Assembly: GCF_015493435.1 (NCBI RefSeq)
Contig: NZ_WGDD01000047.1
Location: forward strand, 1 to 39,855
Length of the DNA stretch: 39,855 bases
DNA from: Sulfurovum sp.
GTDB lineage: Bacteria > Campylobacterota > Campylobacteria > Campylobacterales > Sulfurovaceae
Direction of reading: 5' to 3'
Position 1 is the first letter of the stretch. The number at the start of each line of letters is the position of its first letter. The position numbers and the translations under genes were made by a program. The notes beneath the pieces are model-generated. The model did no database searches. It was not told the origin of the DNA and worked only from the letters and a program-made list of their open reading frames with translations. Below, one piece after another: positions 24,125 to 29,403 of this stretch.

Positions 24125-24646
24125 TTATGCGTTCGCAGCAGCTTTTGCGGCTTCAAGTGCTTCTTCATAGTTAGGCTCTTCTGTGATTTCAGGCACAGTT
24201 TGCTTGTACGTTACTTTCCCGTCTTTCCCGATCACAAAAATCACTCTAGCAAGCACACCGGCCAAAGGACCGTCTGCCAAAAGTACTCCGTAAGCATTAC
24301 CGAAATCTTTGTTTCTGAAATCTGAACATACTTTAATGTTTTCAATCCCCGCTGCGCCACACCATCTCGCCGCTGCAAAAGGAAGGTCCATAGATACTGT
24401 CATTACTTCTACACCGTCAAGTCCGGCTGCTTCAGAATTGAATCTTCTTGTTTCTGCATCACATACACCTGTATCAAGTGAAGGAACCGCTACTACAAGT
24501 TGAACTTTACCTTCTCCACCTACTTGCTCATCCTGGAGCATTGGGTTACAGTTTACTACTGTTACTACCGGTGCCGTATCACCTACATTGATTTCATTAC
24601 CTGCGAGATTACATACGATGTCGTTTTTAAATGTTACTGTTGCCAT
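24125..24646 (-). CDS. tpx: Thiol peroxidase
   Basis: A 173-residue atypical 2-Cys peroxiredoxin that reduces hydroperoxides using thioredoxin. The peroxidatic C62 lies in PSLDTGVCDAETRRFN and the resolving C96 in ARWCGAAG, matching the Cys61/Cys95 pair of E. coli Tpx. Length is normal. AAAAGGATATTAA precedes the ATG. It stands alone, with its own terminator and a promoter region carrying 12-bp direct repeats, which suggests dedicated stress control. Confidence 0.95.
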   Translation of the reverse strand: MATVTFKNDIVCNLAGNEINVGDTAPVVTVVNCNPMLQDEQVGGEGKVQLVVAVPSLDTGVCDAETRRFNSEAAGLDGVEVMTVSMDLPFAAARWCGAAGIENIKVCSDFRNKDFGNAYGVLLADGPLAGVLARVIFVIGKDGKVTYKQTVPEITEEPNYEEALEAAKAAANA

Positions 24647-24874: not shown

Positions 24875-25273
24875 TTATGCCTGGATATCAGCGACCGCCT
24901 TCACCCATTTCTCCATAGCGGCATTGGCATCTGGGTTTGGGGCCTCCATAAAATTGATCATGAAAGTATCCCCCATATCTGCAATACCTATGGAGCGGGG
25001 TCTCACAGCCATCACTTCCGGCTTTGGCAGTACCTTCCCGAAACAGCAAATGAGGTTTTTTGCACCCCTGATATTTGCAGCGATCTCACCGACCTCCAGG
25101 CTTGATGTATGTGCGTAATGATCAAAAACCCCTATGTATACAGCAATGGGATGCATCTCGATCTGTGACTTGATATATGCAATGATCTCATCTATACTTT
25201 GGCAGCGTGTCTCTTCTTTTGCAATTTCTATGCTAAATACCGGGTATTTTTCCATCACCGTAATTTGCTTCAT
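24875..25273 (-). CDS. Conserved-looking hypothetical protein
   Basis: A 132-residue soluble protein without a signal peptide. It starts MKQITVMEKYPVFSIEI, has a central YIGVFDHYAHTSSL and a NLICCFGKVLPKPEVMAVRPRSIG segment, and ends with a predicted helix. The pattern of well-formed strands and helices suggests a real folded domain, but I do not recognise the family. The ATG at 25273 is preferred to 25294 because AAGGAAAAACAG lies right before it. It starts 62 bases after the SQR-like flavoprotein in the same direction, so a functional link with sulfide oxidation or redox balance is possible. Confidence 0.8.
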   Translation of the reverse strand: MKQITVMEKYPVFSIEIAKEETRCQSIDEIIAYIKSQIEMHPIAVYIGVFDHYAHTSSLEVGEIAANIRGAKNLICCFGKVLPKPEVMAVRPRSIGIADMGDTFMINFMEAPNPDANAAMEKWVKAVADIQA

Positions 25274-25335
25274 CTGTTTTTCCTTGTATGACATTTATAA
25301 TTGATTTTGATAGAACAGGCCTCATAGTCTGCGAA

Positions 25336-26557: not shown

Positions 26558-28042
26558 TCACTGCTGACTCTTTTTTGCTTTTTCAATTAAGTCTGCACGA
26601 GGATAGACAAAGACGGTATGTCGTATCACTGATATATTCTTTTTATCATCAGCAGCGAATGCTCTGATCGTAACAGGAATCGGAACATCTTTTCTTACAT
26701 TGTCCGCCAGTTTGTATTTGGTTCTGAGTACTACAACTTTTTTACGTTTTTGCTCCGCAGCAAGACGGAATGGTGCTTTCGGTCTTATGATTTGCAGTTT
26801 ATTCTTCAAGTCACCCATGATTTCAAAATAATACTTATGCGGTTTGCTGTCTGTGTTGGCAAACAAGAAGACATAGTCATTCTCCACTTCTCCGTTCTTG
26901 AGTATTTTGTAAAGTCTGGTTGTTTTATTTACATTGAGCAGCATATTCTCTTTTTCGCTTCCCATGGTAAAAAGTGCTACAAGGACCAGAACCAATACTG
27001 TAAAATACGCAATTACTTTCGGTCTGAAATAATTTGTTTTCCCCTTCTGATAGATCGTTTCATTTTCACTTGACCACTTGACCAGAGAAGGTTTGCCGAG
27101 AGCACCCATCACTGTCGTACAGGCATCTACACATTCCAGACAGTTGATACATTCAAGCTGCAAACCTTTACGAATGTCAATATGGGTGGGACAGACCGTC
27201 ACACAGCTTTCACATGTGGTACATTCAGCATATGGTTCATCGGCAAGCAGATCTTTTGTTTTACTGTATTTTTTATGCCGTTCATTTCCGTGACCTTCAT
27301 AAATATCACCGCCACGATGAGGATCATAAATCGCCATGATCGTATCATCATCATAGAGTACTGACTGCACACGGCTGTAAGGACAGATATAAACACAGAA
27401 ATTTTCTTTAATAAATACTACATCCACAATAATAAATAAAGCAATCCCCACAAGCATTCCGATCAGGAGAGTATGGTCTGCCGGATGCTGTAGGTACTTG
27501 AAGAAATCTTCCGGAGGAACAAAATACCAGAGAAAATCAGCAGCAGCAATGAATGCCAATACAGACCATATCAGGATCGCAATTACTTTTTTGACCTGGT
27601 TTTCAGGCTTGCTCATATCAGGATCTTTCTGTTTATTCTTGATACGCTTTCTCAGCCCAAGAAGCTTTGTTTCTATAAAATCCCGGTAGATCACACGGAA
27701 GACTGTTTGGGGACATGCCCATCCGCACCATGCCCTTCCTCCGACTGCGGTCACCGCAAAAATACCCAAAAAAAGCAACATAAGCAGAAACGGCATGAGG
27801 TAAAGCTGCTGCATATCATATGCTACGCCGGCCAACTGCAGTTTTTTATGGTCAAAACTCAACAGAAACAAATGATTCCCATGAATGGTGATCCACGGCA
27901 TAACCAAAGCAATAATGGTTACCACTGCATAGACCCAGTAACGTTTGATACGATACGGCACCCAGCCCTTCAAATATTCTTTTGCCTGATTTTTCTTCGG
28001 CTTCTTTTTAACTTCTTCCACATTTTGTGCTACAGCTTCCAT
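26558..28042 (-). CDS. ccoG: Cytochrome c oxidase accessory protein CcoG (FixG/RdxA)
   Basis: A 494-residue membrane iron-sulfur protein needed for copper handling in cbb3 oxidase assembly. Transmembrane helices lie near 36-52, 80-100, 153-172 and 192-210, with one more near 336-354. Cys pairs are in RAWCGWACP (105-111) and CVYICP (216-221). Two 4Fe-4S ferredoxin motifs begin CTTCESCVTVCP (274-285) and CINCLECVDAC (298-308). A C-terminal Ig-like periplasmic domain follows. The ATG overlaps the upstream recombinase-like gene's stop (TAATG), implying translational coupling. Presence implies a cbb3-type oxidase elsewhere in the genome. Confidence 0.94.
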   Translation of the reverse strand: MEAVAQNVEEVKKKPKKNQAKEYLKGWVPYRIKRYWVYAVVTIIALVMPWITIHGNHLFLLSFDHKKLQLAGVAYDMQQLYLMPFLLMLLFLGIFAVTAVGGRAWCGWACPQTVFRVIYRDFIETKLLGLRKRIKNKQKDPDMSKPENQVKKVIAILIWSVLAFIAAADFLWYFVPPEDFFKYLQHPADHTLLIGMLVGIALFIIVDVVFIKENFCVYICPYSRVQSVLYDDDTIMAIYDPHRGGDIYEGHGNERHKKYSKTKDLLADEPYAECTTCESCVTVCPTHIDIRKGLQLECINCLECVDACTTVMGALGKPSLVKWSSENETIYQKGKTNYFRPKVIAYFTVLVLVLVALFTMGSEKENMLLNVNKTTRLYKILKNGEVENDYVFLFANTDSKPHKYYFEIMGDLKNKLQIIRPKAPFRLAAEQKRKKVVVLRTKYKLADNVRKDVPIPVTIRAFAADDKKNISVIRHTVFVYPRADLIEKAKKSQQ

Positions 28043-28728
28043 TATGATATCCTTTCTAATTGTTGTTCTTTCTGTGTTTCACTCTCTTCGTCAAAGGGAC
28101 AGATCAATACAGTATTATCCACACCGGGAACCTCTTTGAGAGGACTTATTTCCATCCATGACCCCTCCACCAATTCTCTGATACCTCTTGACTCAATATA
28201 ATCCTTCAAAGAACTTCGGCTTACCCCCAGTTCTCTGGCGATGGCACTCACATTCATTCCTTCTCTGAGCAAAGAAACAATTTGTGCCTGATAGACATCG
28301 AATTTTGATGAGGAACGACTCCCTTTGGGGCGTCCTATCTGGTTCGATCTGGCTTTTTGCGCTTCACGTAGATCGTTCAGCAGAGGAAAGACTTTGACTA
28401 TCGGTGTCTCCTTCGTAACATGTATCTGCAAACTGGAAATATAAAGTTTAATATTCCGGCTCAACATACAGTTAAAAAGTTTGATCATTTCTTCTGCTTT
28501 ATCACTGAGCACAGACAGAGTATCTACTACCAGTATATCTCCGTCAGCCAAAGAATGAAGAAATTCTTCAAACTGCTTGCGCTCTTCGATAGAATGATTC
28601 TTTGTAGAGTACTCTATCACCTCTTTGTCTATCGATATACCCTGAGTCAATGAAAATGAGAGAATATTACGCTGTTGGTCTGACAAATTTGTATTGTCAG
28701 GCATCTGTCTTAAATATGCATACGTCAT
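28042..28728 (-). CDS. Serine-recombinase-derived protein with lost catalytic residues, probable DNA-binding regulator
   Basis: A 228-residue homologue of resolvases/invertases. The N-terminal fold is kept (AYLRQM start, DILVVDTLSVLS), but where active enzymes have YARVS the sequence reads YLRQM, so the nucleophilic serine is replaced by M9. Where they have DRLGR it reads DTLSV, so both active-site arginines are missing. The Hin/resolvase helix-turn-helix is well preserved (about 148-185: IVSLLREGMNVSAIARELGVSRSSL), and a 40-residue acidic tail follows. DNA cleavage is therefore unlikely and a transcription-factor role is inferred. It is coupled to ccoG by TAATG, has a strong promoter (28753-28781) and an upstream TGACG repeat array. 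AAAGGAGCAGT precedes the ATG. Confidence 0.82.
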   Translation of the reverse strand: MTYAYLRQMPDNTNLSDQQRNILSFSLTQGISIDKEVIEYSTKNHSIEERKQFEEFLHSLADGDILVVDTLSVLSDKAEEMIKLFNCMLSRNIKLYISSLQIHVTKETPIVKVFPLLNDLREAQKARSNQIGRPKGSRSSSKFDVYQAQIVSLLREGMNVSAIARELGVSRSSLKDYIESRGIRELVEGSWMEISPLKEVPGVDNTVLICPFDEESETQKEQQLERIS

Positions 28729-28752
28729 ACTGCTCCTTTATCATTACAAAGT

Positions 28753-28781
28753 ATTTTAACACAGTTGGTGATAAAAGTCAA
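28753..28781 (-). promoter_or_regulatory. Consensus-like sigma70 promoter of the recombinase-like/ccoG operon
   Basis: On the minus strand TTGACT (28776-28781) and TAAAAT (28753-28758) are spaced exactly 17 bp, the best -35/-10 pair in the window. It lies 25 bases upstream of the ATG at 28728. Confidence 0.65.
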
Positions 28782-28799
28782 TATATTTTTATATATTTT

Positions 28800-28844
28800 C
28801 GTCATTTAATTGTTTTTATCGTCATTATTTCTATATTTACGTCA
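28800..28844 (-). repeat. Three TGACG repeats phased at 20 bp
   Basis: CGTCA (TGACG on the minus strand) occurs at 28800-28804, 28820-28824 and 28840-28844, exactly 20 bp apart, in A+T-rich spacers. The array sits just upstream of the -35 box of the recombinase-like gene. Spacing of two helical turns places all copies on one DNA face, as in activator or autoregulator binding sites. Seen directly; the ligand is inferred. Confidence 0.5.
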
Positions 28845-28923: not shown

Positions 28924-29403
28924 GTGAACCTTACACATTTGGATGAACAGAACAAACCGAAAATGGTAGATGTATCAGAAAAAGGAAACACTGCCCGTAC
29001 GGCAACAGCCAGCGGACTCATCGAAGTAGGCCAGGATGCATTTGATGCCGTCATCGCCAATACCGCAAAAAAAGGACCTGTCCTACAAACTGCTGTTATC
29101 GCCGCAATACAGGGAACCAAACAAACCAGTACCCTTATACCGATGTGTCATCCCCTGATGCTTACTTCCGTTAAAACAGATATTGAAGAACTTCCTGCAC
29201 TTCCCGGTTTCAAGCTGACGGTCACAGCAAAACTTATCGGTCAGACGGGGGTAGAGATGGAAGCATTGACTGGTGTAAGCGTAGGACTGCTGACCATTTA
29301 TGATATGCTTAAAGCCATTGACAAAGGCATGGTCATACGAAACGTACAGCTTGAACATAAAAGCGGTGGAAAATCCGGTGATTTTTCAAGAGAGGGTAAC
29401 TAA
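28924..29403 (+). CDS. moaC: Cyclic pyranopterin monophosphate synthase MoaC
   Basis: A 159-residue enzyme of molybdenum-cofactor synthesis, forming cyclic pyranopterin monophosphate from the MoaA product. Family signatures are [34 protein letters not shown], the active-site [33 protein letters not shown] and the catalytic-lysine region near [15 protein letters not shown]. The start is GTG 28924, preceded by GAAGGA. Moco is required by SoxC encoded 9 kb downstream. Confidence 0.96.

Follow-up and report, generated by a model that had tools for sequence, protein, structure and literature searches.

A serine-recombinase homologue without its active site is a candidate autorepressor of respiratory-oxidase genes in Campylobacterales

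In the window, which is the whole 39,855-nucleotide stretch of Sulfurovum sp. DNA analysed here (contig NZ_WGDD01000047.1), a gene for a serine-recombinase homologue stands directly before ccoG. This locus raises the question of what a recombinase apparently deprived of its active site would do at the head of an operon for cytochrome cbb3 oxidase maturation. A preliminary description, made from the sequence alone, had proposed a dedicated regulator of that operon, and the protein is called the regulator below. The genes and the ribosome-binding site concerned are as follows.

28042..28728, minus strand: regulator gene, serine-recombinase homologue predicted to be catalytically dead, ATG start, 228 aa
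26558..28042, minus strand: ccoG, accessory protein of cytochrome cbb3 oxidase, of the cupric reductase family, TIGR02745
25336..26508, minus strand: SQR-like flavoprotein (Pyr_redox_2), a relative of the type III sulfide:quinone reductases
28924..29403, plus strand: moaC, divergent neighbour in the flank
28733..28738, minus strand: ribosome-binding site AAGGAG, 4 bp before the regulator ATG

The TAA of the regulator gene shares one A with the ATG of ccoG (TAATG), in agreement with the overlap described previously. The TIGR02745 match of ccoG scored 487 bits (cut-off, 317), and in cbb3 biogenesis CcoG acts as a cupric reductase (PMC8267372). The SQR-like flavoprotein gene is the third in a conserved run, regulator-ccoG-SQR-like. 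It is followed on the same strand by genes for a DUF6858 protein (24875-25294, minus strand) and a thiol-peroxidase-like redoxin (24125-24646, minus strand), an arrangement also present in many Sulfurovum-type loci, and these genes perhaps form an extended redox cluster. On the other side, a role as the moaC promoter was rejected for the upstream region because moaC adjoins the regulator solely in Sulfurovum- and Hydrogenimonas-type genomes; moaC is probably a flank and not a target of the regulator.

Domain searches placed the regulator above the cut-off for both Pfam Resolvase (PF00239; 34 bits, cut-off 23.3) and HTH_7 (PF02796; 30.9 bits, cut-off 23.8). The predicted structure had a mean pLDDT of 75, with tail residues 189-202 and 212-228 below 50, and its best Foldseek matches in the PDB were a gamma-delta/Hin chimaera on DNA, gamma-delta, Tn3, and Sin, with E = 9e-9 to 2gm4. 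The resolvase fold and Hin-type helix-turn-helix (HTH) recognised earlier were thereby borne out. The protein consists of a resolvase-like domain (approximately residues 1-110), a shortened E helix (approximately 110-128), a GRPKGS minor-groove arm (132-137), the HTH (142-180), and a C-terminal tail containing C210. The nearest NCBIfam model was the Mpi model PRK13413, with 64.5 bits against a cut-off of 272, and no NCBIfam model fitted; the label given by public libraries would be 'recombinase family protein'.

The active site was examined by aligning 47 family members with gamma-delta resolvase and with 8 recombinases from the same order having an intact active site. Compared with the gamma-delta sequence, six residues were changed (S10 to M9, Q14 to T13, D67 to S72, R68 to V73, R71 to D76, and R119 to E122) and three were kept (R8, Q19, and R45, corresponding to R7, Q18, and R50). 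Serine occupied the nucleophile column in all 8 active controls and in none of the 47 family members, which had K, L, D, M, V, R, and other residues there. The equivalents of R68 and R71 were gone throughout the family, and those of R8 and R45 were retained. Replacement of the nucleophilic serine by M9 had thus been read correctly; as to the two arginines reported lost at T70 and V73, the latter stands, and T70 had been misaligned, the second lost arginine being at D76. These changes suggest that the regulator has lost strand-exchange chemistry. It is very improbable that the protein, by means of other residues, still acts as a recombinase or nicking enzyme and inverts or resolves DNA at the operator sites described below. 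The fold and the R8, Q19, and R45 equivalents are what such an enzyme would retain, but neither the nucleophile nor R68, R71, or Q14 is preserved, the nucleophile column shows no constraint across the 47 proteins, and the single site in most genomes leaves no partner for exchange. Residues R171, S173, D176, S180, and R181 of the recognition helix were invariant in all 47 members and variable in the active controls.

The regulator resembles the small serine recombinases of the Mpi and Hin/gamma-delta types (PF00239 plus PF02796; PRK13413) in fold, domain order, GRP arm, and HTH. It differs from them in lacking the nucleophilic serine and the R68/R71 equivalents, in its shortened E helix, in an extra C-terminal tail with a conserved cysteine (46 of 47 members), and in belonging to a host operon, not a mobile element.

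Matches at E<=1e-10 were obtained in 160 of 299 Campylobacterales genomes, ordinary recombinases included. The family proper (E<=1e-38) was found in host families f1 (Sulfurovum), f4 (Hydrogenimonas), f5, f6, f16, f17, f18, f20, and f22, and in one f13 genome; membership of f2 came from a match at E=1e-34 with a single-sequence query. The regulator family is thus present in at least nine host families of the order. The gene directly 3' on the same strand was ccoG in 45 of 46 loci of a first set and 36 of 37 of a second, and in the one exception of the first set (L013) the contig ends there. Both this linkage and the Ser/Arg loss (47/47), whose conservation among relatives the preliminary description had named as a point to check, were conserved. 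The SQR-like gene came next after ccoG in f1, f4, f5, f18, and f22. A second ccoG copy without a neighbouring regulator gene was observed in two loci (L213 of genome G039 and L214 of genome G053).

In the protein tree, the members clustered by host family, as expected under mainly vertical descent. The dN/dS ratio in close pairs was approximately 0.05-0.07, dead catalytic domain included, and judging from these values the regulator is under purifying selection and is not a decaying gene. Loss of active-site residues would also be seen in a decaying recombinase gene kept by chance beside ccoG, but such chance survival has next to no probability given the order-wide retention, usually as one copy, the dN/dS of approximately 0.06 in the dead domain, and the conservation of HTH, cysteines, and operator.

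Comparison of upstream regions revealed a conserved putative operator on the regulator's own promoter, which is new here and goes beyond the preliminary description. The layout consists of TTGACGAWAAA, 17-19 bp, the -35 hexamer TTGACT, and then CRTCAA, with the -10 element approximately 17 bp past the -35; the consensus of the putative operator is TTGACGAWAAA-N~18-TTTWTCGTCAA. Inverted TGACG arms face each other over the -35, 33-35 bp apart from start to start and 38-40 bp from outer end to outer end. Among the 73 upstream regions, which were those where an operator-like pair was detected, the strict pattern occurred in 53, compared with 0 of 1460 dinucleotide shuffles. Promoter spacing was 16-18 bp in 69 of the 73, with near-consensus hexamers (TTGACT-17-TATAAT). 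Both arms were altered jointly in L106 (TGGCG..CGCCA) and L094 (AGACG..CGTCT), as would be expected if one symmetric protein reads both arms. The elements in the window are listed below.

28840..28844, minus strand: putative half-site TGACG, first direct repeat
28820..28824, minus strand: putative half-site TGACG, second direct repeat, at a 20-bp distance from the first
28800..28804, minus strand: putative half-site TGACG, third direct repeat, which is also the left arm of the inverted pair
28776..28781, minus strand: -35 element TTGACT, between the arms of the inverted pair
28766..28770, minus strand: right arm of the inverted pair, degenerate CACCA (CATCA/CGTCA in relatives)
28753..28758, minus strand: -10 element TAAAAT, 17 bp from the -35

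CGTCA, the reverse complement of the half-site, is repeated at 28800, 28820, and 28840 in exact 20-bp steps, and within its own genome this 20-bp TGACG repeat is confined to the regulator promoter. Sulfurovum-type loci often had one or two extra upstream TGACG copies with the same period and a degenerate right arm, CATCA (CACCA in the window). In most of the f16 loci inspected, TGACG was found in the start region.

Several candidate signals were set aside. Counts of TGACG-N28-CRTCA in the own genome were discarded as near chance, the pattern matching 15 times and its reversed control 11 times. A strict N28-only inverted repeat was dropped as too narrow, since the real sites, with their spacing of 28-30, escaped it and its matches lay elsewhere, five of them in f4 at an apparently conserved start-codon region. 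In five f4 genomes (L127-L131), a TGACG-N28-CGTCA palindrome spanned an apparent ribosome-binding site and start codon; it probably reflects coding conservation and not an operator. R175 in the recognition helix accompanied CGCCA arms (4/5 vs 2/36, p=0.0007), but the association was rejected as independent evidence, four of these sequences belonging to one clade.

Regulon searches were carried out with two operator profiles, R1 and R2, on sequence only. With R1 at E<1e-3 in 60 relatives, a strong match was present in 34 of the 38 gene-bearing genomes and in none of the 22 gene-less ones (Fisher p ~1e-12); many of these promoters had gone into the training of R1, which makes the count of genomes having both gene and operator partly circular, the informative evidence being the gene-less genomes, held-out genomes, and secondary sites. 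Two further gene-bearing genomes had the site weakly. Strong R1 matches numbered approximately one per genome and lay almost solely at the regulator promoter. R2 recovered the own-promoter site in 28 of 29 genomes left out of training. Matches at E>0.001 were mostly set aside as chance, and the few inspected were graded weak.

The tie between protein and operator is one of co-occurrence, which would also be seen if the operator were owned by another transcription factor and the recombinase-like protein were an operon passenger. This explanation is nevertheless quite unlikely. The operator is missing from the 22 gene-less relatives, and it travels with the gene in G052, where the regulator is apart from ccoG: there the operator is retained at the regulator's own start, with no strong match at the ccoG of that genome. 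No strong match was found near the second ccoG copies of L213 and L214, which have no regulator gene beside them, and the recognition helix is as frozen order-wide as the operator.

We consider it likely, from the sequence evidence, that an Mpi/Hin-type recombinase has been exapted as the autorepressor of a regulon of respiratory-oxidase genes. According to this proposal, a serine recombinase of that type would have kept its dimerising fold and its GRP-arm/HTH DNA-binding unit and lost strand exchange. The regulator would bind the inverted TGACG pair straddling the -35 of its own promoter and, in Sulfurovum-type genomes, would also engage one or two extra TGACG half-sites upstream, 20 bp apart. 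The occupied operator would keep RNA polymerase off the near-consensus promoter, and the outcome would be autorepression of the regulator-ccoG(-SQR-like) transcript; in some lineages, an SQR-like gene with its own site and genes for NifX-like and cytochrome bd proteins would come under the same control. DNA binding and repression are thus predicted properties, and negative autoregulation is proposed because arms around the -35 are in the classical repressor position; the sign of control is read from the operator position alone. Two features speak against the proposal: the operator arms span approximately one helical turn more than site I of gamma-delta (28 bp), although active relatives have the longer E helix, and in Sulfurovum-type genomes the right arm is degenerate.

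The direct repeats upstream of the -35 in Sulfurovum-type loci could instead be activator sites, in which case the regulator would recruit or remodel RNA polymerase, as an activator or in a dual role. A second target in f16, where TAGACT or CGACT replaces TTGACT within the site and the site is probably upstream of the core promoter, would fit this as well. We regard activation as unlikely, however: in nearly all families, the sole site straddles the -35 of a near-consensus promoter with normally spaced hexamers (at 16-18 bp in 69 of the 73 regions), at which activation should be unneeded and a bound dimer should block.

Whether the predicted autorepressor is dedicated to ccoG, as had been supposed, depends on the genome. 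Most genomes had a single operator site, which favours a dedicated role; in some, extra sites stood before SQR-like, NifX-like, cydAB, and other genes, so that the supposition would hold nearly, though not wholly, the regulation itself being deduced from sequence. In two f6 genomes (L201 and L216), an operator of its own preceded an SQR-like gene orthologous to the window gene after ccoG. A NifX-like gene had an operator in two f20 genera (L202 and L219), NifX being assigned by eye; the L202 protein had no Pfam match. The best operator match in all genomes searched was in L168:1650-5055 (G052 contig 67), before NifX-like, DUF4492, and cydAB genes. In at least seven f16 genomes (L166, L198, L199, L200, L217, L218, and L221), an operator preceded the gene of a small membrane protein with one helix, and a gene for an M48-type peptidase (recognised by eye) came next. 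The small protein, 63-69 aa long (78 aa in the L221 gene call), had no Pfam or NCBIfam match, and the operator in these loci was nearly invariant, TGACGATAAAATAAA..AAAAATAGACTTAAATCGTCA. A weaker operator-like site, TGACGATAAAACTATATTTTTATTTTAGTTTAATCGTCA, was observed at L222:2733-2772 (G270) before an apparent rhodanese-type protein. The site-bearing genes appear to share a theme of respiratory oxidases and sulfide/quinone electron flow.

The window regulator contains exactly two cysteines, C87 in the dead catalytic domain and C210 in the tail missing from active recombinases, each conserved in 46 of 47 members. The sole exception is the G052 regulator, which lacks both cysteines and the C-terminal tail and is the one apart from ccoG. 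Two active controls (L117 and L122) have a cysteine at or next to the C87 position, and C87 may be ancestral. Because C87 and C210 are conserved, a thiol, metal (copper), or Fe-S input through them is offered as a first guess.

FNR/FixK-type regulators control fix/cco operons, and the regulator would occupy the same functional place, cbb3 maturation and oxidase genes, with an unrelated protein. According to a review, orthologues of ArcA, FNR, and NarP are not encoded in Campylobacterota (PMC6682613). It is conceivable, but on balance doubtful, that throughout the order this dead recombinase senses copper, redox state, or oxygen through its two cysteines and, in the place of FNR/FixK, controls terminal-oxidase assembly and sulfide/oxygen respiration.

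Partial precedents exist among recombinases. A Sin dimer binds direct or inverted repeats non-catalytically at regulatory site II (PMC2428073). Docking of this kind on mixed repeats is what the mixed layout here would require; Sin keeps catalysis at site I, whereas a catalytic site is found in no member of the regulator family. TnpR resolvases of Tn3-type transposons repress tnpA/tnpR from res, and autoregulation by a resolvase from across its own promoter is likewise predicted here. TnpR, however, remains an active recombinase that represses on the side, whereas the protein described here would have only its regulatory role left, exerted on host respiratory genes. Searches of open-access literature yielded neither a description of this family nor any report of a serine recombinase that has lost catalysis and serves its host as a dedicated transcription regulator, and the passages considered from a review of recruited mobile-element proteins list no recombinase turned transcription factor (PMC8987985). 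If true, the proposal would provide a clear case of a recombinase turned dedicated transcription factor, and it would pair a named gene with a defined operator and a small set of candidate targets centred on oxidase maturation, SQR-like, and cytochrome bd genes.
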